Both the position numbers and the translations under genes were made by a program. A stretch of 23,159 bases of DNA from a virus, in IMG/VR virus record IMGVR_UViG_3300041410_000005, positions 1-23,159 of that record. One strand, written 5' to 3'. Shown here one piece after another: positions 8,696-23,159 of the stretch. Under the pieces are notes generated by a model. That model worked only from the letters and a program-made list of their open reading frames with translations, searched no databases and had not been told where the DNA came from. The number at the start of each line of letters is the position of its first letter. Position 1 is the first letter of the stretch.

Positions 8696-9691
8696 ATGGC
8701 AACCCTGACCGCCACCCATCCGACCCTGCTGGATTTCAAGCAGCGTCTGGACCCCAACGACAAAGTCGCCCAAGTCATCGAACTGCTGAACCAGCAGAAC
8801 GAGATCATCCAGGACATCCCGTGGAAGGAGGGCAACCTCATCACCGGCGATGTGACCTCTGTTCGCACCGGACTGCCTGCCCCGACGTGGCGCAAACTGT
8901 ACGGTGGTGTGCAGCCGGGCAAGAGCACCAGCGCTAAGGTGACCGAGGCCTGCGGCATGCTGGAAGCCTACGCCGAAGTGGACAAGGCGCTGGCCGACAT
9001 GAACGGCAACTCGGCCGCGTGGCGCTTCTCAGAAGAGATGGCGCACATCGAAGGCATGAACCAGGAGTTCACCTCCTCGCTGTTCTACGCGGACGAACTG
9101 ACCGAGCCCGAGGCTTTCACCGGCTTCGCCCCGCGCTTCAACAGTCAGTCGGCGGCCAACGGCGGCAACATCCTGACCTCGGCGGCCACTCCCGACAGCA
9201 CCGACAACGCGTCGATCTGGCTGGTGGGCTGGGGCACGTTCGTGCACGGCATCTACCCCAAGGGCTCGAAGGCCGGCATCAGCGTCGAGGACAAGGGCCA
9301 GGTCACGATCGAGAACGTCGACGGCTCGAACGGTCGCATGGAAGCGTACCGCACGCACTACCGCTGGGACTGCGGCCTGGCCGTGCGTGACTGGCGCTAT
9401 GTGGTCCGCATCAACTACGACCTGGAAGACATCGTCAAGTCTGGCGCTACCGGCCCCGTGCTGGCCGACCTGATGGCGAAGGCGATCCGTCGCATCCCCA
9501 GCCTGGGCATGTGCAAGCCGGTCTTCTACGCCAACCGCGACACGCTGGATGCGATCGACCTCCAGACCAACAACATGCCTCTGCTGGCGTTCCGCACCGT
9601 GGACGACGCGCAGGGCAAGCTGGTCACGTCGTTCCGCGGCATCCCGATCCGCCGCTGCGACGCGCTGCTGTCGAACGAGTCGGGCATCTGA
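8696..9691 (+). CDS. Major capsid protein (Bbp17-like)
   Basis: A 331-residue shell protein that should assume the HK97 fold. It resembles the BPP-1 Bbp17-type capsid family: N-terminal TLLDFKQRLDPNDKVAQVIE, then LLNQQNEIIQDIPWKEGN (around residues 30-47), a long spine-like region EAYAEVDKALADMNGNSAAW (about 87-106), and the C-terminal LAFRTVDDAQGKLVTSFRGI and PIRRCDALLSNE. No large N-terminal delta domain is visible, consistent with a separate scaffold gene upstream. GGAG at 8683-8686 precedes the ATG. The gene is intact and is probably among the most highly expressed in the window. Confidence 0.92.
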   Translation: MATLTATHPTLLDFKQRLDPNDKVAQVIELLNQQNEIIQDIPWKEGNLITGDVTSVRTGLPAPTWRKLYGGVQPGKSTSAKVTEACGMLEAYAEVDKALADMNGNSAAWRFSEEMAHIEGMNQEFTSSLFYADELTEPEAFTGFAPRFNSQSAANGGNILTSAATPDSTDNASIWLVGWGTFVHGIYPKGSKAGISVEDKGQVTIENVDGSNGRMEAYRTHYRWDCGLAVRDWRYVVRINYDLEDIVKSGATGPVLADLMAKAIRRIPSLGMCKPVFYANRDTLDAIDLQTNNMPLLAFRTVDDAQGKLVTSFRGIPIRRCDALLSNESGI

Positions 9692-10183: not shown

Positions 10184-10396
10184 ATGGAACTGATCGCGAC
10201 CGAACCGGCGTTCTACAAGGGCCGCCGCCTCCGTCCTGGGCAGGAGTTCACCTTCGACGGCGACAAGCCGCCGAAGTGGGCTGCACCCAAGGACAAGGCG
10301 GTCCTGAAGCCGCAGCCGATGGCCGCGGACACCCGCCCCCTGGCGACGCAGAAGGCCGTGAAGAAGAAGATCGGCGAGATCAGCGAAGCGGCCTGA
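10184..10396 (+). CDS. Small head-region protein
   Basis: A 70-residue basic protein. Its first 30 residues (MELIATEPAFYKGRRLRPGQ, then EFTFDG) look like a short beta-barrel module found in small phage proteins beside capsid genes; the rest is Lys/Ala/Pro-rich and probably flexible. Function is unknown. The ATG is two bases after the cement gene stop, with no strong ribosome site of its own, so translation is probably coupled. It is the last gene before the terminator at 10418-10442. Confidence 0.75.
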   Translation: MELIATEPAFYKGRRLRPGQEFTFDGDKPPKWAAPKDKAVLKPQPMAADTRPLATQKAVKKKIGEISEAA

Positions 10397-10417: not shown

Positions 10418-10442
10418 GGGCCGCCTCTGTGCGGCCCTTTTT
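10418..10442 (+). terminator. Intrinsic (Rho-independent) terminator
   Basis: A perfect seven-base stem, GGGCCGC (10418-10424) with GCGGCCC (10431-10437), a six-base loop, and five T residues directly after. It lies 22 bases after the stop of the gene at 10184 and 14 bases before the ATG at 10457. It should end or attenuate transcription of the head module, with the fibre, sulfatase and tail genes reached by read-through or by another promoter. Confidence 0.85.
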
Positions 10443-10456
10443 GCAGGAATCGAGAG

Positions 10457-11299
10457 ATGGCAAACGCAGAGTTCGCGCGCAGCTTCAAGTGGCTCAAGAG
10501 CGCAGCCGGGGCTTGGCTGGGGTACGTGTCCGGCGATGGCTCCGAAGTGGAGATGTTCAAGAAGGGCGCGCTCGCCTCGCGTCCGGCGGCCTCGGTCTAC
10601 AACGTCGGCATGCGGTACTTCGCCGATGACGAGAACGGCGGAACGGAGTACACGAACTACAACGGCATCGCGTGGACGCAGACCTCGCCGGGGCTGACAG
10701 CCGAGGTGACCTACACCTCCTCGACCTGGGCGCTGCGCGGGACGGGCTCTTTCGTCGGGCAGATCAAGCGCATCACCGACCTCGGCAACAAGACGACCGT
10801 CCTTGCAATTTGGGATGGCACGTATTGGCAGCCCCTCGGCGGCGCTCAGACCATCTACGCCCTGGCCGCGCCGATCACCGGCGCTGCTGGCGCTTCCAGC
10901 GCGTGCACGCTGCCGAGCATCACGGTTCCGGCTGGCCTGCTCGGCATCAATGGTGGTCTCGACATCGAGATCGCAACGCACACGCTCAGCAGCACGGCGT
11001 CGGTTGCAAACACGGTCTCATACACCTTCGGTGGGTTCGAGCTGTTCGGCACCGACCGCACGACCAACCGCCGGATCTGGAACGCACGGCGGATCATGAA
11101 CCGCAACGCCACCAACGTGCAGACGGTGTTCTCCAATGCCTCGGGCACTGGCGCGTATGAGCAGGCGGCCAACGACCCCAAGGAGACCACCAAGGAATCC
11201 GCCGCCGACATCGCAATGGCCGGCTCGGCGACTGCCACCCACGCCAGCAGCATCACGAACCGCGTTGACGAGTTCCGCGTTCGCTGGATCGGGGGCTGA
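10457..11299 (+). CDS. Beta-rich virion protein, fibre- or decoration-like
   Basis: A 280-residue protein without a clear family. Residues about 48-80 (YNVGMRYFADDENGGTEYTN, then NGIAWTQTSPG) follow the pattern of a short beta module common in phage fibre and spike proteins, where a Gly-rich loop is followed by a Trp-Pro turn. A second such stretch, LAIWDGTYWQPLGG, is at about residues 115-128. The C-terminal half is rich in Ser, Thr, Ala and beta-formers and ends DEFRVRWIGG. No signal peptide or membrane segment is seen. The gene lies between head and tail genes, after the terminator, and ends two bases before the sulfatase-like gene, so the two may form an accessory virion pair. A head fibre, a tail fibre base or a cement protein are all possible. 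Confidence 0.65.
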   Translation: MANAEFARSFKWLKSAAGAWLGYVSGDGSEVEMFKKGALASRPAASVYNVGMRYFADDENGGTEYTNYNGIAWTQTSPGLTAEVTYTSSTWALRGTGSFVGQIKRITDLGNKTTVLAIWDGTYWQPLGGAQTIYALAAPITGAAGASSACTLPSITVPAGLLGINGGLDIEIATHTLSSTASVANTVSYTFGGFELFGTDRTTNRRIWNARRIMNRNATNVQTVFSNASGTGAYEQAANDPKETTKESAADIAMAGSATATHASSITNRVDEFRVRWIGG

Positions 11300-11301
11300 A
11301 G

Positions 11302-12666
11302 ATGGCTGCCATCTCGCTGCCCTTCGGCCGCCAGGTCAACATCATCAACTGGCGCGGAGATGACCTCCCGTGGAACTCCGACCTTGGCCTGCTTCAGGTC
11401 GGGCAGGGCCAGTACCTCGGCGGCTGGGTCAAGTTCAACAACGGCGGCGCTGTCACCTCCCTGTGCGGCCCTGGCCGGATGGCTGGCTTCACCGGGCGCA
11501 TGCCGCAGACGCACCGCATGTGGTCGAACGACACCGGCGAGGACGTGGATTGGCTGATCACCTACTTCGCCGACCTCGCGCGTCGCGGCTACACGAATTT
11601 CGTGGGGGGCAAGCTGCTGAACGGCTACGGCGAGCCGCCGCAGAACAACGGCAACTTCACCATCCCGTACTCGTTCCCCGAGATCGGCATCCACAAAGCC
11701 AAGATCATCTACGGCTCGCCGCAGTATGGCCTGGGGGCGCCGAACGACAACAACGGCAACCAATACATAGACGAGGCCGGGAACGTCACCGGCGACAAAG
11801 ACGCCGACGTGGGGGATGCCTTCTACTACCCAGATCTGTGGCTGACCCACGTCACCGACTTCCTCGCTGGCGTTCCTGTTGGCCAGCCGTGGTCGATCTA
11901 CATCGGCGACAAGGCCAGCCACATTCCCATCACGCCGGCCACGCGGTACGAGAACACCTCGATCACCTGGGATGACAACCCGGCCTTCGGGGTTGACCCC
12001 ACGGGCGGCGTCACCCGTCAGCCGCAATTCATCATCGACGACGCTGAGGCCAACTGGGGGCAGAGCAAGCAAGACGAGGTGCGCGCTGACAACCTCGAAC
12101 GACTGCGGACGCTGCGGGCGAGCGATGACTCGCTGAAGGGTTTGATTGACCTGGTGGTTGCTCGCGGTGAGCTGGAGAACACGCTGATCATCATCAGCGG
12201 CGACCAGACCGACTACAGCGGCGAGCTGCGCCAGGCCGGCGGCAAGGGCACGAACCACTGGGCGGCCAATGCCCTGAACCTGCGGGTTCGTCGGCCTGTC
12301 GCTGCAAGCAGTCCGAACACGACGTGCGAAGCGCTGGTGTGCGATGCCGACATCGCCTCCACGATCCGCCACGCCTGCGGGGCTGTTGCCAAGTACGGGG
12401 AGGATGGCATGTCCTTCGTCAACCAGTTGTCCACCCCGACCATGCCGTTTCGGCAGTCGCGGCCGTACTTCAACCTGTTCAAGAACCCCGAGGTGGCTGG
12501 CCTCATCACTGGCGGCCCGGTGACCTACGGCAAGGGTGTTCCAGATGGCGGCTACCCCAACGAGGAGTACACCTGGACCGACCGATATTGCACGGTGAAC
12601 GCTGGCAAGAACGCCGATTACCGGCGCGAGGTTGATGCCTTCCTCGACATCTTTGGGCGGACCTGA
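11302..12666 (+). CDS. Sulfatase-family enzyme in the virion gene block
   Basis: A 454-residue protein with the landmarks of type I (formylglycine) sulfatases of the alkaline phosphatase superfamily: a first strand with metal Asp pair D20/D21 (NIINWRGDDL); CGPGR at 55-59, fitting the CxPxR motif in which Cys becomes formylglycine, followed by FTGR; GYTNFVGGKLLNGYGE with K104, close to the GKYLNxYG form of N-acetylglucosamine-6-sulfatases; ASHIPITP with H207; a DDSLKGLIDLVVARGELENT helix before LIIISGDQ with D301; and K315 in GGKGTNH. Q302 replaces the usual Asn or His, and the His two residues after K104 is missing. No signal peptide is present. The gene is flanked by virion genes and overlaps the adaptor gene (TGATG). 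It could remove sulfate (or a related ester) from host surface polymers, or serve as an inactive binder. Confidence 0.75.
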   Translation: MAAISLPFGRQVNIINWRGDDLPWNSDLGLLQVGQGQYLGGWVKFNNGGAVTSLCGPGRMAGFTGRMPQTHRMWSNDTGEDVDWLITYFADLARRGYTNFVGGKLLNGYGEPPQNNGNFTIPYSFPEIGIHKAKIIYGSPQYGLGAPNDNNGNQYIDEAGNVTGDKDADVGDAFYYPDLWLTHVTDFLAGVPVGQPWSIYIGDKASHIPITPATRYENTSITWDDNPAFGVDPTGGVTRQPQFIIDDAEANWGQSKQDEVRADNLERLRTLRASDDSLKGLIDLVVARGELENTLIIISGDQTDYSGELRQAGGKGTNHWAANALNLRVRRPVAASSPNTTCEALVCDADIASTIRHACGAVAKYGEDGMSFVNQLSTPTMPFRQSRPYFNLFKNPEVAGLITGGPVTYGKGVPDGGYPNEEYTWTDRYCTVNAGKNADYRREVDAFLDIFGRT

Positions 12667-13253
12667 TGGCTTCGGACGTAGACATCTGCAACCTGGCCCT
12701 GAGCCACTTCGGCCAGGACGCCAACGTGACTTCGATCGTCACCCCAGACGGTCCCGATGCGGAGCACTGCAAGCGCTTCTACCCGATCGCACGGGACGAG
12801 ATGTTGGAGGAGTTCGATTGGTCCTTCGCACGTAAGCGAGGCACGCTGGCCGCGGTGACGAACGACCGCGATGACTGGGCTTACAAGTTCGCCCTGCCTT
12901 CGGACTGCCTGAAGGAGCGCCGCGCCCTCCCCGAGGGCTACGCCGACAACCTGGCCGACCTGATCGAGTGCGAGCGCGAGGGGGATTACCTCTACACGAA
13001 CGAGGAAGTCACGACGCTGGTCTACACCAAGCGCCTGACCGACACTACCAAGTTCTCGCCGCTGTTCGTCACGGCGCTTTCGTGGCGGCTCGCGTCCTAC
13101 CTGGTGGGGCCGATCACCAAGGACGTTTCAGGGACCAGCCAGACCCGGCTGCGGCAGACCTCCGAAGCCCTGCGGCTGCGCGCGTCGACCTCTGACGCCA
13201 AGCGCGACCGCAAAGAGCCGGAGTACACGAACACCGCTCAGAGGGCTCGCTGA
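12666..13253 (+). CDS. Tail adaptor (tail tubular protein A-like)
   Basis: A 195-residue protein of the T7 gp11-like adaptor family, which forms the ring below the portal and joins it to the nozzle. The start MASDVDICNLALSHFGQDAN and the helix CKRFYPIARDEMLEEFDWSF (about residues 36-55) are typical, as is WAYKFALPSDCLKERR. The C-terminal helical FVTALSWRLASYLVGPIT fits the helical bundle. Start and stop overlap both neighbours (TGATG-type), consistent with tight coupling. Confidence 0.88.
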   Translation: MASDVDICNLALSHFGQDANVTSIVTPDGPDAEHCKRFYPIARDEMLEEFDWSFARKRGTLAAVTNDRDDWAYKFALPSDCLKERRALPEGYADNLADLIECEREGDYLYTNEEVTTLVYTKRLTDTTKFSPLFVTALSWRLASYLVGPITKDVSGTSQTRLRQTSEALRLRASTSDAKRDRKEPEYTNTAQRAR

Positions 13254-15565
13254 TGGCGGCGGGGAATGTTCACCCGCTGATCCGCTCCTTTGCTGGCGGC
13301 GAGATCACCCCGGAGATGTTCGGGCGGCTGGACCTGGACAAGTTCCAAACCGGGGTGGCAAGGGCCAAGAACATGCGCATCCTGCCGCACGGGCCAGTTC
13401 AGAACCGCGCTGGGCTGAAGTACGTTCTTGAGGTGAAGGACATCTCCCGAGCGGTGCGGGTGATCCCGTTCGCCTACTCGGCCAGCCAGACCATCATGCT
13501 GGAGTTCGGCCACCAGTACGTGAGGTTCCACACCCAGGGTCTGACGCTGCTCGAAACCGGCCTGGCCATCACCGGCATCACTCAGGCGAATCCTGGAGTC
13601 CTGACCTACACCGGCTCAGACCCCGCCAACGGGGATTGGATGTACCTGTCCGGCATCGTCGGCATGACCGAGCTGAACAGTCGGTTTGTGAAGGTGGCGA
13701 ACGTCAACGCTGGCGCCAACACTTTCCAGCTCACCGACATCCACGGCGGCGCCAACATCAACACCACGGACTTCACCGCGTACGCCAGCGGCGGGACGGC
13801 GGCCAGGGTCTATGAGATCGCCTCACCCTTCGTCGAAGCCGACCTGTTCGATTTGCACTACACGCAATCGGCGGATGTGCTCACGATCACGCACCCGAGT
13901 TACGCGCCTCGTGAGCTTCGGCGCACTGGCGCCACGAACTGGGCTTTCACCTCGGCGTCGTTTGCCCCGGCCATCGCAACCCCAGCCGGGCCGACGATGG
14001 CAACGGGCGGGCCAGGAGGCGGCACCCCGATCGTTCACACCTACACCACAACCGCGGTGTCGGCCGACTCATATGAGGAGTCGCTTGCCTCGCCGACCGG
14101 GGGCGCCAACGTCGACCTGACCGTTGCCGGCAACTACGCATCAATCACGCCTGCGGCGGTCGCTGGAGCGGTTCGCTACAACATCTACAAGGAGGCGAAC
14201 GGTGGCCTGGCGGGCTACATCGGCCAGTCGGACGGGACGGCGTTCCTTGACTACAACGTCACCCCCGACATGAGCCAGACGCCGCCGGAAGCGAACACGC
14301 CGTTCGCCTCGTCGGACAACTACCCGTCGACCGTGACCTACATCGAGCAGCGGCGTTGTTTTGCCGGGACGAACAATCGGCCGCAGCACATCTGGATGAC
14401 GAAGTCAGCGACCGAGGGCAACCTGTCGCAATCGGTCCCGTTGCGCGACAACGACGCCATCATCCTGCGCATCGCCGCCAGCCAGCAGAACCGGATTCGC
14501 CACGTCATCGGGCTGGGGGATCTGATCGCGCTGACCGCCGGTGGCGAGTTCCGCCTCTACGCAGCCGGCACCGATGTCCTGACCCCATCCAGCACCACCC
14601 CGAAGCCGCAGAGCTACGTCGGGGCTTCCAACGTCCAGCCGGTTGTGGCTGAGAACGCTGTTCTGTACGAGCAAGCTTCAGGCGGCCACATGCGGGAGTT
14701 CGCCTATGCGGGCGACGGGTTGAACGGGGCGCTCTACAAGACTAACGACATCAGCATCCTCGCGCCGCACTTGTTCGACGACTACACGATGACTGACATC
14801 GCGTTCAGCCGGACGGCATCCTGCCCCTCTCTGATGGTGTCTCGCAGCGATGGAAAGCTGCTGACGATGACCTACGTGCCAGGGCAGAACGTTCGCGCCT
14901 GGTCGTGGTGGGAGACCAATGGCGAGTTCGAGTCGGTTTCGTGCGTGACCGAAGGGGCCGAGGATGTTGCCTACTTCGTGGTCAAGCGCACGATCAACGG
15001 CCGGGAAGTGCGCAACATCGAGTGCGCCCACACCCGCCGGTTCACCGAGAAGGAGGATGCCTTCTTCGTCGATTGCGGACTGACCTATGACGGGGCTGCC
15101 GCAACCACCATCAGCAACCTCTGGCACCTCGAAGGAGAAACGGTGGTGGCCACTGCTGATGGTGCAGTTGTCCGGAACCTGACTGTGGAGGATGGGCAGA
15201 TCACACTTCCAGCCGCCGCGCAGAAGGTGCACATCGGGCTGTCATACACCTCGAACATGAAGACGCTTCCCCTGTCCTGGCAGGCTGACGGCTACGGGCA
15301 AGGCATCGTCAAGAACATCAACCGGGTGGGTGTTCGGGTGTCCAACTCCAGCGGGGTGCGCGTCGGGCCGGCGGACGGCACGCTGTACGAGATCAAGCAG
15401 CGGACCACGGAAGTCTATGGAGCCGCACCTGAAATGCTCCAGGGCTGGCAGCACACCAACATTGCCCCCAAGTGGGACGCCGATGGCGCGGTGGAGATCG
15501 AGCAGACAGACCCGCTGCCGGTGACCATCCTGGCGATGGTGCTGCATGTCTCGGTTGGCGGTTGA
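13253..15565 (+). CDS. Tail nozzle (tail tubular protein B-like)
   Basis: A 770-residue protein that should form the hexameric tail nozzle. The N-terminal GGEITPEMFGRLDLDKFQTG (about residues 15-34), then ARAKNMRILPHGPVQNRAGL, matches the podoviral nozzle pattern of a Gly-Gly-Glu start, a Gly-Arg-x-Asp-Leu segment and a Gly-rich turn before an Arg-x-Gly. The remainder is beta-rich with repeated Tyr/Thr/Gly stretches, as expected for the platform and propeller domains; a Pro/Gly/Thr-rich insertion lies near residues 240-270. A role in receptor contact is possible. Its end overlaps the GNAT-like gene by 20 bases. Confidence 0.87.
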   Translation: MAAGNVHPLIRSFAGGEITPEMFGRLDLDKFQTGVARAKNMRILPHGPVQNRAGLKYVLEVKDISRAVRVIPFAYSASQTIMLEFGHQYVRFHTQGLTLLETGLAITGITQANPGVLTYTGSDPANGDWMYLSGIVGMTELNSRFVKVANVNAGANTFQLTDIHGGANINTTDFTAYASGGTAARVYEIASPFVEADLFDLHYTQSADVLTITHPSYAPRELRRTGATNWAFTSASFAPAIATPAGPTMATGGPGGGTPIVHTYTTTAVSADSYEESLASPTGGANVDLTVAGNYASITPAAVAGAVRYNIYKEANGGLAGYIGQSDGTAFLDYNVTPDMSQTPPEANTPFASSDNYPSTVTYIEQRRCFAGTNNRPQHIWMTKSATEGNLSQSVPLRDNDAIILRIAASQQNRIRHVIGLGDLIALTAGGEFRLYAAGTDVLTPSSTTPKPQSYVGASNVQPVVAENAVLYEQASGGHMREFAYAGDGLNGALYKTNDISILAPHLFDDYTMTDIAFSRTASCPSLMVSRSDGKLLTMTYVPGQNVRAWSWWETNGEFESVSCVTEGAEDVAYFVVKRTINGREVRNIECAHTRRFTEKEDAFFVDCGLTYDGAAATTISNLWHLEGETVVATADGAVVRNLTVEDGQITLPAAAQKVHIGLSYTSNMKTLPLSWQADGYGQGIVKNINRVGVRVSNSSGVRVGPADGTLYEIKQRTTEVYGAAPEMLQGWQHTNIAPKWDADGAVEIEQTDPLPVTILAMVLHVSVGG

Positions 15566-16572: not shown

Positions 16573-18197
16573 AAGTTCCAACCGTAGACGGCCCGAGCGT
16601 TTCCCAGCAGGCCGCCCCAAACGCCTACCAGACCGCGCCCCAAGGCGGCGGGGCTGCTGCTGTCCGCGCGCAGCAGTTCGGCCAACTGGCGGGGACGGTC
16701 GACGCCTACGCGCAGCACGTCCAGCGCGAGCAGAACAAGGCAGACCTCGATGCGGTGTTCCGCTCAGAAACCGCACTGAAGGACGACTACCTCACGTTTG
16801 AGCGCGAGGAACTGGGCCGCAAGGGCATCGATGCCAAGGGCGCTGCGGAGCGCGCAGAGAAGTGGTGGGGCGAGGCCAGGCTGAAGTATTCGGAGGGCCT
16901 GAGCGAGCGCGCGCAGATGGCGTACCGCCGCAGCTACACCCAGTTGCGGCAATCCAGCGCCAGCACCCTCATGCGCCACGAGCAGGTGCAGACCGATGCG
17001 GCATTGGGCGAGTCCGCTCAAGCCCGGGTGTCCACAGCCGTCCAGATGGCGACCGCCGATCCTTCTCCCGAGCGGCTGGAGAACTCGCGCCGCGAGATCA
17101 CCGAAGCGGTGAACATCGTCGGGAAGATGGCCGGGCTTCCTCCTGAAGCCATCCAGGCGAAGCTGAACGAGTCCATGACCATGATGCACTCTGGCGTGGT
17201 CATGCGCCTGCTTGACTCCGAGAAGACCGACGACGCCAAGGCGTACTACTACACCCACAAGAAAGAGATCGACGGCGGCACCCAGTTGACGATCGAGAAG
17301 GCGCTGGAGCGAGATGGGCGCTTGCAGAAGACGCAAGAGGCCGCGGACGGGATCATGCTCAAGTTCGGGGACCTCGGCTCAGCGATGGAGCACGTCGAGA
17401 AGGCCTATGCCGGGGAAGACGAGAAGCTGATCAAGGCCGAGGTTCAAAGCCGTTTCACCACGCGGCAGGCGGCCAGCAATGCCATGTCGCAGAAGGCCTA
17501 TGAGTCGAGCGTCCTGGCGGTGGCTGAAGGGCGGAAGGTTCCGGCCAGCCTGTGGACGCAGATGGACGACGGGCACAAGGCGGCCATCATCGATCGACAG
17601 CGGGCCGAAGCCAAGCGCCGGGAAACCGAAGCGGCAGGCGGAAGCGTCAAAACCGTCTTCACCGAGTGGGACAAGCTGAACCGCATGGTGACCGACGACC
17701 CGAAGGCGTTCGCCGCCTTGGATCTGGAGCGCTACTCGGACAAGGTGAGCCGGCAGGATCTGATGGAGTTCGCCGGGGTGCAACGCAAGATCAGGTCCGG
17801 CGACGACAAGCCGATCAAGGATGCCGCCACCCTGGCGCAGCAGATCGACGTCGTTCAAGACCAACTCAAGATCAAGCCGAACACCCCGCAGAGCGCCACC
17901 CTTCGCAAGGCCGTCAATGACGCGGTGAACGTCGAGCAGCAGCAGAAAGACAAGGTGCTGACCTACGAGGAGCGCCAGAAGGTGATCGACCGGACGGTGA
18001 TGGAGTTCGCTGTCCCCGGCACCTTGTGGGACAGCACCAAGCGCGCCTACGAGATGACGCCAGAAGAGAAGGCCAAGGCCAAGCCGAAGATCAGCCCTGC
18101 CGACCGCTCGGCGATCGAGGCGAAGCTGCGGGCCGCTGGCCGGCCGGCTGACGAAGCCGCGGTGATGGAGTGGTACCGCCGCTGGAAGGGGCTCTGA
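16569..18197 (+). CDS. Internal virion (ejection) protein, T7 gp15-like
   Basis: A 542-residue, almost wholly helical and highly charged protein. It starts with a flexible Gly/Ala/Gln-rich segment (residues 1-35) and then long predicted helices such as AYAQHVQREQNKADLDAVFR and LMRHEQVQTDAALGE. Charged Glu/Lys/Gln stretches alternate up to the end (EEKAKAKPKISPADRSAIEA). This matches the middle ejection protein of podoviruses, which builds the periplasmic tunnel together with the next gene product. The start overlaps the preceding stop (ATGA) and the stop overlaps the next start (TGATG). No enzymatic motif is visible. Confidence 0.78.
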   Translation: MKVPTVDGPSVSQQAAPNAYQTAPQGGGAAAVRAQQFGQLAGTVDAYAQHVQREQNKADLDAVFRSETALKDDYLTFEREELGRKGIDAKGAAERAEKWWGEARLKYSEGLSERAQMAYRRSYTQLRQSSASTLMRHEQVQTDAALGESAQARVSTAVQMATADPSPERLENSRREITEAVNIVGKMAGLPPEAIQAKLNESMTMMHSGVVMRLLDSEKTDDAKAYYYTHKKEIDGGTQLTIEKALERDGRLQKTQEAADGIMLKFGDLGSAMEHVEKAYAGEDEKLIKAEVQSRFTTRQAASNAMSQKAYESSVLAVAEGRKVPASLWTQMDDGHKAAIIDRQRAEAKRRETEAAGGSVKTVFTEWDKLNRMVTDDPKAFAALDLERYSDKVSRQDLMEFAGVQRKIRSGDDKPIKDAATLAQQIDVVQDQLKIKPNTPQSATLRKAVNDAVNVEQQQKDKVLTYEERQKVIDRTVMEFAVPGTLWDSTKRAYEMTPEEKAKAKPKISPADRSAIEAKLRAAGRPADEAAVMEWYRRWKGL

Positions 18198-21100
18198 TGG
18201 CGTCGTTCGACGAATTCTTCGACGCTGAAGAGAAGCGCGTCAAGCAGGCCGATGCGCAGCGCATGGTGCCTGGAAGCCCAGCCAACGATGCCGGCTTCGA
18301 TTCCTTCTTCGACCAGCAGCAAGGCGTCCAGCGCCGGGCCAACCTGCGGGAGGCGGCTGCAACCAGCCCCGAGCAGGCAGGAGAGGCCGCACGCCTGGCC
18401 AAGCGCTATCCGGCCCCCGAAGATGTCCTGCTGCGCAACCTGCGGGACGTGCAGATTCAGGCAGCGGTCGAAGACGCAGATCAGCGGCTGAAGACCTCCC
18501 CGAAGCTGGCCCAGGCGCTTGGGGACAAGCCATTCCTCTACAAGCAGACGGCGGATGATGTGCCCGTCTTGGCCTCGCTGGAGCAGTTCGCCGCAGACAC
18601 GTGGGGCTCGGTCAAAGCAGGCACGTACAGCGCCAGCCGCGGGGCGGGCGGGTTTTTCCAAGGCGGGTTTGAGCTTGTCGCACCGCTGCTTGACGTTCTG
18701 GAGAACTACCCGGAGGTTGGCGGCAACCCGCTTCGCCGCGTCGCCGAAGGCTTCTCCATGCTCGGGGAGGCCAACAAGCAGAGCGCTGCTGCTGTGCGCC
18801 CGAAGACTGACGGCCCGCTGGAGGGTGGTTTCCAGTCCGGCATCGAGTCGTTCACGCAGAACGCGATTGCGCTGCCGGCTGCGTTCCTGAACCCGTCCGC
18901 CAGCTTGGCGATGATGACCGGCTTCACGGGCGGCAATGCCTACGAAGACGCCCGGGCCAAGGGCCTGCCGATGTCGCAGGCGCTGCCTTACGCCACCAGC
19001 CAGGCGGCTATCGAGTACGCCACCGAGAGGCTGCCCCTCCTGAAGCTGATCGGGGATGTCAAGGCGGGCACGCCGTTCCTGAAGACGCTGGCGACCCAAG
19101 CTGCATTGGAGATCCCCGGCGAGCAGGTGGCTACCGTCCTGCAAGACCTGAACGAGTGGGCCGTCCTGAACCCGGAGAAGCCGTTTGCGGAGTACGTGAA
19201 GGAGCGGCCGAACGCGGCCCTCCAGACCCTCGTGGCGACGGTGGTTGGCACGGGCGGGAACGTCACCCTGACGACGGCGATCGAGAAGGCCGTCAACACG
19301 GTGGCCAAGGCCGGACAGCAGCAGGATCAGGCGCAGCAGTTCTCCGAAGCGCTGGGCAAGATGCTGGAGACGGCCGAGAAGTCGAAGCTACGCGAGCGCA
19401 ACCCGGAAGACTTCCACGACCTGATGGAGAAGGTTGTTGGCGAAGGCGAAATCTACGTAGATGCCGAGGTGCTGAACCAGCTTCCCGTCGAAGATCAGCA
19501 GGCCCTTCCCCCCGCCGTCATCCAGCAGGTGCCTGCGGCCATCGCTTCGGGCGGCAGCATCGCCATGAGCATGGCCGACGTGCTCACCCTGGCCCCGGGG
19601 ACGCCGCTGCAAGACCTACTCCTGAAGAACGCCCGCGCGACCCCTGACGCGCCGAGCATGGCCGACGCCTCCCAAGCCGACGAGCAGGCGAAGGAGTGGA
19701 CGAAGGCCGAGGGCGAGCGAGTGGTGAACGATGCTTTGGCGCAGCAAGAGGCTGTCGCCAGCGCCGAGGCCGTCAAGCAGCAGGTGCTGGAGCAGTTGAA
19801 CACCGCCGGCCGATTCCGCCCTGCCGTGAATGAGCAGTACGCCACCTTCGTGGCTGCGTTCTATTCGGCGATGGCCGGCCGGGCGGGCGTGACGCCGCAG
19901 GAACTGGCGGCGAAGTACCCGCTGCGGGTGGTGTCGACGCTTGCTCAAGAGCAGGCGCTCAACCAGAATGGGGACGATGGACAAGCAGCTGGCGCAACTG
20001 AAGCAGATCTCCCAGGCGAACAGCCAACAGTGGCGGGAGGCGTTCGAGAAGCCGGCGAACGACCCGCAAATCCTGCTGGCGGCCGATCGGCTGATGCGGC
20101 TGCTTCAGTTGAAGACGCCGCGCCTGTTCGACATGAAGCGCTAGCCCAAGGCGCCCGCGGCACCTTCAGCCCGAGCCGGCTGGAGATCGCGCTCGGCTCG
20201 AATGCCGACCTCAGCACCTTCCTGCACGAGACCGGGCATTTCTTCCTGGAGGTGGCCGCCGACATGGCGAGCCAGCCCAATGCCCCGGCAGACCTCCAGA
20301 AGGACATCGCCACGCTGATGCAGTGGTTCGGCGTTCCAGACGTGCAGACGTGGAACGGCATGAGCCTTGACCAGCAGCGGCCGTATCACGAGCGCTTCGC
20401 CGAGTCGGTGGAGCAGTACCTGATGGAGGGCCGCGCGCCGAGCGTGGAACTGCTGCCGGTCTTCCGCCGCTTCCGCACTTGGCTGGCCAGCGTCTACAAG
20501 TCGGTGCAAAACTTCCTTGGCAACAAGAAAGACAGCCCCATCCAGCTCAGCGACGAGGTGCGGCAAGTGCTGGACCGCATGCTCGCCAGCCAGGAGCAGA
20601 TTGCCCAGGCCGAAGAGGTGGCCGGGCTTGTCCCCGACGAAGAGGCCACCCAGCGAGCCGTCGAGAAGCTGACGGCCCGCTCGCTGCGTGACCTGAAGTG
20701 GACGGTGGGGGCGCGCTCCAAGGCAATCAAGGCGCTTCAGGCTGAGGCGAAGTCAACCCGCAAGGCGGTGGAGGCTGAGGTTCGCGCGGAAATCGAGGCG
20801 CTTCCTGCCATGCAGGCGAAGGTGGCGCTCAAGGGCAAGACCCTGGCCGCCGATGATCTCGAACTGGTGGCGGTCACCTTCGGCTTCGATTCGGCCGATG
20901 CGATGCTTCAGGCGATCGACGCCCTTGGCTCGAAAACTGACCTCGTCAAGGCCATGACCGATCAGCGCATGCTGCAAGAGCATGGCGACCTGATCGATCA
21001 GCAGGCCATCGAGCAGGCGGCGAATGAGGCGGTCCACAACCAAGCTCGCGCCCGCGCCCTGGCTTCTGAGCTTCGGACTCAGGCCGAGGCCATGAACCAG

Positions 21101-23159
21101 CGCCAGGACACCGGCCGGACCACAGCTGACGGCCGGCGCATCACTGTCAACGCCATCGTCGCAGCAGCAAAGCAGTTCGGCGCCAACGTGGTCGACGGCA
21201 CGCTGATGAAGGACCTTCGCAGCCGGGCCGCACAGCACACCGCAGCGGAGCGCCGGGCCGCGTCGAAGTGGATGGAGGCCACGAAGGGCGGGAAGACTGC
21301 CGAAGCCATCAAGGCCAAGCAGGATCAGGTGCTCAACAACGCCGCCGCCCGGGCCGCGCTGGAGGCCGCTGGGCGCGCCCGCCGGGATCTGGACTACCTG
21401 CGCAAGTTCGACCGCCAGACGGTGCGTAAGAACCTGCCCGCCGAGTACCTGGAGCAGATCGACCAGCTACTGGAAGGTGTCGACCTCAAGGCTTCCACGA
21501 CGAACAAGGAGCTGGAGCGCCGCAAGTCCCTGCGCGAGTGGGCGCAGAACCAGGAAGACCTGGGCCTGCCGGTCAACGTCCCCGAGGAACTGCTGGACGC
21601 GGCAAACCTCAAGTCGTGGAAGGAGATGACCGGGGCGCAGTTCGCCGACTTGGTGGACGCTGTGAAGAACATCGAGCACCTAGGCCGGCTGAAGAACAAG
21701 CTGCTGACGCTGAAGGACAAGCGCGCCTTCGACAAGCTGGCCGAGGAAGCGGCGGACACCATCATCCAGCACGGCGGCAAGCCGAAGAAGATCGAGCTGG
21801 AGGGCCGCAACCGCGCGGTTGCCCTGGCTTCTGGCTTCGCTGCCAGCCACCGGAAGATGGCGAGCCTTGTGCGCCAGATGATGGGCGGCAAGGATGGCGG
21901 GGCTCTGTGGGATGCCCTGATTCGGCCCATGAACGAGGCCGGCACCCAAGAGGCGGTGATGATCGAGCAGGCCACCATCCGCCTGCAAGAACTCTACAAG
22001 CCGGTGTTGAAGCTCGGGTTGACCGGCGACAAGCAGTTCATTCCCGAGATCGGCGCGAGCCTGTCCCGAGGTGGCCGGCTGGCGGTTGCCCTGAACTGGG
22101 GCAACGCACAGAACCGCCAGCGGGTGATGGGTGGCGACAACTGGACGGCTGAGCAGGTGGGCGCCATTCTGTCGCGCCTAACCCCTGTCGAAGCCCAGTT
22201 CGTGAATGACGTGTGGGCGTACCTGGACAGCTACTGGCCCGAGATCAAGGCCAAGCAGGAGCGCGTCTCCGGGGTGGTGGAAAAGAAGGTGGAGGCCGAG
22301 CCATTCACCCTGACCCTGGCTGACGGGTCTACCGTGCAGATGCGCGGCGGCTACTACCCCATCAAGTACGACACCGAGCGCTCCACCAAGGCAGAAGCCC
22401 AGGAAGCGGCCGAGGTCGCGAAGGACATGATGCGCGGCGCCTTCACCCGGGCGACCACCCGCAGGGGCCACACCAAGGCTCGGACGGAAGAGGTGAACCG
22501 CCCGGTACGCAAAGACCTGGATGTGATCACCCAGCACGTCACCCAGGTGGTGCACGACCTTGCTTGGCACGAATGGGTGATCGACGCCAATCGCATCCTG
22601 TCCGACAAGCGGATTGAAGGCGCGGTGCGCACGTACTACGGCCACGACGTGCTGCGCACCATGAAAGACGACGTGGCCGGCATCGCCACGGCCGATGTCA
22701 AGGCGCAGACCGCGGTGGACAAGGGGCTGCTGTTCGCACGCTCGCAAGTCTCCAGGGCCACCATGGGCCTGTCTTTCACGACGGCGCTGCTGCAACCGTT
22801 CGGCCTGACCCAATCCATGGTTCGCATCGGCACGGCGCACGTCCTGCGTGGCGCTGCGCAGTGGGCCGGCGATGCCGCGCGGATGCGCAACACTATGAAG
22901 CAGATCGGCGAGAAGTCCGACTTCATGCGCCTTCGGTCGAAGACCATGAACCGGGAGATCAGCGAGATCACCCAGCGCGTCAATGGCCGGTCGAAGGTCA
23001 TGACGGTGATCGATTCGGGGCTGTTTGTGCTCACGACGAAGATGCAGCTCGTGGCCGACATCCCCACCTGGCTCGGGGCGTACAACAAGGCGATCTCTGA
23101 AGGATTGGACGAAGACACCTCGGTTGCTCGGGCTGACCAGGCTGTTCTCGATGCCCAGG
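18197..23159 (+). CDS. Giant internal virion protein with HExxH motif (partial, 3' end outside window)
   Basis: The frame is open from ATG 18197 to the window end (at least 1654 residues); I checked it codon by codon through about 21700 and at the end, with no stop seen between. It takes the place of T7 gp16 but shows no recognised lytic transglycosylase domain so far. The N-terminus repeats a short acidic motif, FDEFFD (4-9) and FDSFFD (34-39). Residues about 150-400 are helical and Gly/Ala-rich. A low-complexity linker spans about 594-649, where the coding signal sits in another frame. FLHETGHFFLE carries HETGH at 677-681, a zincin-like HExxH motif, with E732/E736 in HERFAESVEQY as a possible third ligand. 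Long coiled segments follow, and the last 300 residues include YYPIKYDTERSTKAEA, as in large polyvalent phage proteins. Such proteins are ejected into the host with the DNA. Confidence 0.88.
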   Translation, partial: MASFDEFFDAEEKRVKQADAQRMVPGSPANDAGFDSFFDQQQGVQRRANLREAAATSPEQAGEAARLAKRYPAPEDVLLRNLRDVQIQAAVEDADQRLKTSPKLAQALGDKPFLYKQTADDVPVLASLEQFAADTWGSVKAGTYSASRGAGGFFQGGFELVAPLLDVLENYPEVGGNPLRRVAEGFSMLGEANKQSAAAVRPKTDGPLEGGFQSGIESFTQNAIALPAAFLNPSASLAMMTGFTGGNAYEDARAKGLPMSQALPYATSQAAIEYATERLPLLKLIGDVKAGTPFLKTLATQAALEIPGEQVATVLQDLNEWAVLNPEKPFAEYVKERPNAALQTLVATVVGTGGNVTLTTAIEKAVNTVAKAGQQQDQAQQFSEALGKMLETAEKSKLRERNPEDFHDLMEKVVGEGEIYVDAEVLNQLPVEDQQALPPAVIQQVPAAIASGGSIAMSMADVLTLAPGTPLQDLLLKNARATPDAPSMADASQADEQAKEWTKAEGERVVNDALAQQEAVASAEAVKQQVLEQLNTAGRFRPAVNEQYATFVAAFYSAMAGRAGVTPQELAAKYPLRVVSTLAQEQALNQNGDDGQAAGATEADLPGEQPTVAGGVREAGERPANPAGGRSADAAASVEDAAPVRHEALAQGARGTFSPSRLEIALGSNADLSTFLHETGHFFLEVAADMASQPNAPADLQKDIATLMQWFGVPDVQTWNGMSLDQQRPYHERFAESVEQYLMEGRAPSVELLPVFRRFRTWLASVYKSVQNFLGNKKDSPIQLSDEVRQVLDRMLASQEQIAQAEEVAGLVPDEEATQRAVEKLTARSLRDLKWTVGARSKAIKALQAEAKSTRKAVEAEVRAEIEALPAMQAKVALKGKTLAADDLELVAVTFGFDSADAMLQAIDALGSKTDLVKAMTDQRMLQEHGDLIDQQAIEQAANEAVHNQARARALASELRTQAEAMNQRQDTGRTTADGRRITVNAIVAAAKQFGANVVDGTLMKDLRSRAAQHTAAERRAASKWMEATKGGKTAEAIKAKQDQVLNNAAARAALEAAGRARRDLDYLRKFDRQTVRKNLPAEYLEQIDQLLEGVDLKASTTNKELERRKSLREWAQNQEDLGLPVNVPEELLDAANLKSWKEMTGAQFADLVDAVKNIEHLGRLKNKLLTLKDKRAFDKLAEEAADTIIQHGGKPKKIELEGRNRAVALASGFAASHRKMASLVRQMMGGKDGGALWDALIRPMNEAGTQEAVMIEQATIRLQELYKPVLKLGLTGDKQFIPEIGASLSRGGRLAVALNWGNAQNRQRVMGGDNWTAEQVGAILSRLTPVEAQFVNDVWAYLDSYWPEIKAKQERVSGVVEKKVEAEPFTLTLADGSTVQMRGGYYPIKYDTERSTKAEAQEAAEVAKDMMRGAFTRATTRRGHTKARTEEVNRPVRKDLDVITQHVTQVVHDLAWHEWVIDANRILSDKRIEGAVRTYYGHDVLRTMKDDVAGIATADVKAQTAVDKGLLFARSQVSRATMGLSFTTALLQPFGLTQSMVRIGTAHVLRGAAQWAGDAARMRNTMKQIGEKSDFMRLRSKTMNREISEITQRVNGRSKVMTVIDSGLFVLTTKMQLVADIPTWLGAYNKAISEGLDEDTSVARADQAVLDAQ
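19977..20144 (+). CDS. Candidate overlapping gene inside the giant protein gene
   Basis: An ORF of 55 codons in the +1 frame relative to the host gene, ATG 19977 to TAG 20142-20144. By hand count 50 of its 55 sense codons end in G or C, whereas only 18 of 55 host-frame codons do over the same bases. Host-frame values are about 48 of 58 just before (19802-19975) and 33 of 36 just after. The peptide (MDKQLAQLKQISQANSQQWR, then EAFEKPANDP and RLMRLLQLKTPRLF) looks like a normal helical protein, while the host frame here gives only an Ala/Gly/Pro/Glu-rich linker. Only a weak GGGGA is close upstream; in-frame starts at 19968 (ATG) and 19941 (TTG) also exist. It may be a small overlapping gene, a frameshift-made alternative C-terminus, or a past insertion. 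No known family. Confidence 0.45.
   Translation: MDKQLAQLKQISQANSQQWREAFEKPANDPQILLAADRLMRLLQLKTPRLFDMKR

Follow-up and report, generated by a model that had tools for sequence, protein, structure and literature searches.

Gene order at the locus

The window analyzed here is the whole stretch of 23,159 nucleotides that forms positions 1 to 23,159 of the IMG/VR virus record IMGVR_UViG_3300041410_000005. Its virion genes follow the order of Bordetella phage BPP-1, i.e., capsid (Bbp17), Bbp16, Bbp15, Bbp14 and Bbp13, and the genes, hairpin and motifs described for this locus lie on the + strand. The major capsid protein is encoded at 8696-9691 (PF20911, 395 bits) and a small Bbp15-like gene, assigned by its position and by the gene order of BPP-1, at 10184-10396. 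On the tail side are a Bbp14-like gene of the tail tubular A type at 12666-13253 (phrog_394, E = 8e-46) and a gene for a Bbp13-like tail protein at 13253-15565 (phrog_376, E = 3e-189). The slot bordered by the Bbp15-like gene on the left and the Bbp14-like gene on the right holds a two-gene cassette. Its first member, the partner gene (10457-11299), encodes 280 amino acids of no known family. Its second member, which adjoins the first, is a sulfatase gene (11302-12666; start codon ATG at 11302, stop codon TGA at 12664-12666) that encodes 454 amino acids.

The original prediction described the sulfatase gene as lying between head and tail genes with coupled overlaps. Downstream this was borne out, as the stop codon of the sulfatase gene and the start codon of the Bbp14-like gene share one base (TGATG); upstream, however, the end of the partner gene and the start of the sulfatase gene are separated by a gap of two bases. 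An intrinsic terminator-like hairpin followed by a T run was found by a hairpin search at 10418-10437, past the last head gene and ahead of the cassette, and no promoter-like site was found upstream of the sulfatase gene. With the hairpin before it and translational coupling after it, the cassette heads the tail unit. The sulfatase gene is located in the virion structural block, as predicted, and has the same place in a second phage, but its closer association is with the tail unit and less with the head unit.

An equivalent of the hairpin was found in the same gap of this second phage. About half of the other loci tested also have one, immediately ahead of the Bbp14-like gene (the search was a simple one, and some negatives may be misses). 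The hairpin on the Bbp14 side also occurs in loci with an empty slot, and a terminator-like hairpin precedes Bbp14 in vB_BbrP_003, a relative of BPP-1, as in the window. The hairpin at 10418-10437 and those of the relatives suggest a conserved attenuator between the capsid and tail genes of BPP-1-like phages.

Fold and active site of the sulfatase

In a Pfam profile search, residues 45-321 of the protein matched PF00884 with an E-value of 1.3e-13 and 51.4 bits (curated cut-off, 25 bits). Solved sulfatases in the PDB were matched both by sequence and by profile, the nearest profile matches being N-acetylglucosamine-6- and galactose-6-sulfatases. An AlphaFold2 model was calculated from an alignment of 50 sequences (two copies of the window protein, one from another phage and 47 from bacteria) and reached a pTM of 0.85 and a mean pLDDT of 77, with low quality in residues 126-168, 226-228 and 406-417. 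The model has the alkaline phosphatase/sulfatase fold; Foldseek returned hundreds of matches in the PDB, the top ones exclusively sulfatases and phosphonate hydrolases, with E-values down to 1.7e-19 and TM-scores of about 0.65-0.72. As had been proposed, profile and predicted fold assign the product of 11302-12666 to the type I (S1, formylglycine) sulfatases, a kind of enzyme with which bacteria treat sulfated sugars. (Note that the phage-protein profile phrog_19870, which matches this protein and the sulfatases of the two other phages described below, represents a family of unknown function and also gave matches in seven of 14 control genomes.)

The absence of a signal peptide was likewise confirmed: in the 50-sequence alignment the stretch ahead of the first conserved Asn is only 12 residues long, compared with a median of 49 in the bacterial homologues, and no signal peptide is present, unlike in those homologues. 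In the tree, the window sulfatase sits on a long branch of 4.8 changes per site. Judged by its sequence, it is a divergent, unclassified S1 member whose divergence precludes placement in a numbered subfamily, and its substrate is therefore not readable from the sequence.

The residues invariant in all 50 aligned sequences are N13, D20, D21, C55, R59, G96, Y97, G103, K104, P196, H207, D275, T294, D301, K315 and D350, which include every catalytic landmark named in the original prediction except Q302. The predicted metal ligands are D20 and D21 (codons at 11359-11364), equivalent to Asp13 and Asp14 of AtsA (PMC5066984), together with D301 and Q302 (12202-12207, followed by T303), so that the D-D and D-[N/H/Q] pairs are both present. 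The predicted formylglycine site, C55-G-P-G-R59 (11464-11478; LCxPxR type), is intact as L-C-G-P-G-R, and the predicted active-site Lys of a G-K pair, His and distal Lys are found as K104 of GKLLNGYG (11611-11613), H207 (11920-11922) and K315 (12244-12246). The S1 catalytic signature, taken from PMC5066984, fits with one mismatch, at G62; only one of 1000 shuffled versions of the protein fitted it equally well.

The original prediction had read Q302 and the lack of a His after K104 as signs of altered metal or substrate handling. The idea that they make the enzyme unusual was rejected, since both are ordinary in published sulfatases. All 47 bacterial homologues have N or H at position 302, where the window protein has Q; in the published family alignment Asn occupies the equivalent position in only 61% of the sequences, with His and Gln as the commonest replacements (PMC5066984). 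The D-Q pair is present in the PDB sulfatases 5g2v (BT4656), 7p24 (BT3177) and 7ebp; an A. muciniphila enzyme is among the solved sulfatases that have it. The His two residues after K104 is replaced by Leu (L106), which the published signature permits and which occurs in 18 of the 47 bacterial homologues.

The genuine departures lie elsewhere, in T303, in the first strand (NIINWRGDD) and in G62. T303 takes the position of a Gly (Gly319) that is 99% conserved in the family (PMC5066984). The first strand deviates from the published Ca-binding 1 signature at several strand positions with both Asp residues retained, that signature being a search aid and no catalytic requirement. The substitution of the Gly and the unusual first strand leave room for a putative loss or change of activity.

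Among known enzymes, the S1 group of N-acetylglucosamine-6-/galactose-6-sulfatases (5g2v, BT4656; 7p24, BT3177; 7lha, BuS1_11) shares the fold, the order of catalytic motifs and the C/S-x-P-x-R site with the window sulfatase, and 5g2v and 7p24 also share its D-Q metal pair. Identity to this group over the fold alignment is about 15-19%, and the window protein differs from it in the missing signal peptide, in T303, in K-x-L-N instead of K-x-H, and in its location in a phage tail unit.

The cassette and its slot in other phages

The same cassette occupies the same place in L002 (= G001), an environmental phage of 35.9 kb. Its sulfatase is 82% identical to that of the window, the highest amino acid identity between the two phages after that of the terminase. 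NG86 estimates, which are rough at a GC3 of about 0.86, gave dN 0.13 and dS 0.67 for the sulfatase (ratio about 0.20), 0.15 and 0.85 for the partner, 0.60 and 0.97 for the Bbp15-like flank, and 0.43 and 0.83 for the Bbp14-like flank. By these estimates the sulfatase is under purifying selection and is held more tightly than its neighbors at the protein level. Because synonymous divergence is alike in the cassette and its flanks, the cassette was probably present in the common ancestor. Despite this wide synonymous divergence, the core catalytic residues, including the formylglycine Cys and the Arg, are all retained in both phages.

The L002 phage is probably temperate, an integrase-like ORF being present, and it encodes a beta-helix-like tailspike at the usual place. 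The sulfatase would accordingly be an auxiliary to this tailspike and not the main receptor enzyme. That such a phage has no need of another enzyme at its surface is a point against a virion role of the sulfatase. No gene for a formylglycine-generating enzyme (PF03781) was found in the window record or in that of L002, both of which are incomplete, in line with the original prediction for the window. Such an enzyme has been described in Pseudoalteromonas phages (PMC10232697).

The partner gene was found only beside the sulfatase gene, and profile searches detected neither a virion-protein homologue nor a known family. Its N-terminal 84 residues are 43-71% identical to the L002 copy, the remainder 79-96%; its AlphaFold2 model is poor (pLDDT 40). 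This identity pattern would suit an adaptor in which one part faces the virion and the other the enzyme.

In BPP-1, vB_BbrP_003, DC33, ctQRb9, ctEw122, zth2-2, HU1 and Jess A, the stretch from the capsid-side genes to Bbp14 contains only one or two small genes and no enzyme. The slot is empty in BPP-1 and most relatives, DC33, ctQRb9 and ctEw122 among them; BPP-1 itself (Rauchvirus), with the same order of MCP, Bbp16, Bbp15, Bbp14 and Bbp13, has nothing between bbp15 and bbp14. Of 132 loci in which a capsid gene and a Bbp14-like gene were both present (a few contigs being counted twice), 25, about a fifth, have at least 1500 bases between the two. Most slot genes of these longer loci belong to unknown families, and for some (e.g., in L058) the matching family is a virion structural or tail one. 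Two encode carbohydrate-active or glycan-binding proteins. The product of L215:5005-6354 matches a 'lysophospholipase L1-like esterase' family (phrog_8480, E = 9e-44) and has, as read by eye, the SGNH-hydrolase blocks GTS, GFND and DGKH, while the product of L227:5050-6354 exceeds the Pfam cut-off for a ConA-like lectin domain. The strongest, though indirect, argument that the slot gene of the window acts on the coat comes from this esterase and this lectin-like protein, and in BPP-1-like phages the slot may be a place where modules that modify or bind the coat are exchanged. No other sulfatase was found among about 160 further relatives fetched via their capsid and tail genes. (Note that Limnohabitans phage DC33, PQ492659, is classed in the Inoviridae, yet its capsid and tail genes are those of a BPP-1-like podovirus.)

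Deep searches for phages more closely related yielded only L002 and L101 (= G002), a contig of 21.7 kb from an unrelated phage in which terminase-like, portal/connector-like and major-head-like genes are followed by a fibre-like structural protein (phrog_697) and, directly after it, by a sulfatase (6007-7218 of L101; 1-1212 on the minus strand of G002) that is truncated by the contig end. This second sulfatase also has no signal peptide and carries the motifs CGAAR, GKYLNDYD and SDQG. In the tree it groups with sequences from Chloroflexota and Nitrospirota, apart from the window sulfatase. It forms a long branch and its exact place is unsure, but across 200 bootstrap trees the three phage sulfatases never came together as one group. 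From this separation, two phage lineages apparently each acquired a sulfatase gene in the virion gene block, independently of each other, and this second case is further indirect support for a virion role.

Searches of 50,697 phage records gave no convincing tailed-phage sulfatase, the short-peptide searches used being not exhaustive for distant members. The other weak matches were mostly unannotated faecal contigs and Acinetobacter and Salmonella contigs with an arylsulfatase annotation. Campylobacter phage A11a (MG065691) was rejected as a carrier, as its match is flanked by enterobacterial PTS, acetolactate synthase and transporter genes and the record is likely contaminated; Campylobacter phage A18a shows the same sulfatase match. 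In a library of viral structures (BFVD), significant sulfatase matches came only from viruses of eukaryotes and none from a tailed phage; those of giant viruses (Satyrvirus, Yasminevirus and Tetraselmis virus 1) share the fold, but their hosts are eukaryotic. No paper on a virion sulfatase was found in the literature searched. A prophage-based host search of 398 genomes of one phylum returned three distant capsid matches only.

Proposed role of the sulfatase

The reading that we prefer, and to which we give about an even chance, is that of a formylglycine-dependent sulfatase that is translated with its partner and the tail genes and carried by the virion as a probable tail or neck accessory, where it would desulfate the host coat. 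C55 would be converted in the cytoplasm by the formylglycine-generating enzyme of the host. The partner would dock via its divergent N-terminus and grip the sulfatase via its conserved C-terminal part, so that the enzyme would be mounted on the tail or neck. On contact, sulfate (or possibly a related ester) would be removed from a surface polysaccharide of the host, by which a receptor might be exposed, a barrier stripped or the virion released.

The label of an unusual depolymerase, used in the original prediction, is too strong for such an enzyme: with a sulfatase fold it would remove substituents and leave the chain uncut, and this fold does not go with the backbone cleavage and beta-helix trimer of tailspike-type depolymerases; the beta-helix-like tailspike of the L002 phage is a separate protein. 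Hydrolases, lyases and deacetylases directed against host coats are known on phage particles, and the virion-borne SGNH/GDSL deacetylases of phage tailspikes also take substituents off the coat polymer with the chain left intact. The window sulfatase differs from these esterases in fold and chemistry, and its predicted hydrolysis of sulfate esters would need formylglycine made by the host.

A different role, which we regard as somewhat unlikely, is that of a late-expressed non-virion enzyme; produced by the infected cell or lysogen, it would work in the cytoplasm or, after lysis, on the coat, e.g., by clearing a sulfated polymer that traps progeny or by altering the coat of the lysogen. The probably temperate nature of the L002 phage would suit this role, and sulfatases have been listed in one review among the viral auxiliary metabolic genes of deep groundwater (PMC10029852). 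However, no promoter-like site lies ahead of the gene, which shares translational coupling with a tail gene and is kept together with its partner; the product has no signal peptide for export, and esterase or lectin-like genes take the same slot in other relatives.

It is improbable that the protein is an alkaline-phosphatase-superfamily enzyme for another substrate, i.e., that it hydrolyzes a phosphonate or phosphodiester and has a phosphorylated coat group as its target. This superfamily is established as promiscuous, and the phosphonate monoester hydrolases 4upk, 4uph and 2w8s were matched by Foldseek at similar scores; but with D21 and K104 the protein follows the sulfatases and not the phosphonate hydrolases, which have Gln and Thr/Tyr at these positions, and the nearest PDB profile matches are the 6-sulfatases named above. 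That the fold has lost catalysis and is now used for binding or as a structural domain is very unlikely, for although the very long branch, T303 in place of Gly and the unusual first strand point that way, the core catalytic set including C55 and R59 has been retained in two widely diverged phages.

In its fuller form, the virion sulfatase reading comprises a particle-borne desulfating enzyme with a dedicated adaptor, an exchangeable slot, maturation by host formylglycine chemistry and a second, independent invention in another phage lineage; taken as a whole, this falls just short of an even chance. If true, it would add a new chemistry to the repertoire by which phages attack host coats, imply hosts with sulfated surface polymers, and make phage infectivity dependent on a protein-modifying enzyme of the host. 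The interval between Bbp15 and Bbp14 would then be a place to seek unknown receptor-modifying enzymes.

Two further features were observed downstream of the cassette. The Bbp13-like protein (13253-15565) contains an E1_FCCH-like inserted domain, which in Pfam (E = 5e-6) is below the cut-off. A giant virion-type ORF of more than 1660 amino acids (18170-23158) extends past the end of the window and carries a zinc-peptidase-like HETGH motif, with HEFGH at the counterpart place in a relative.
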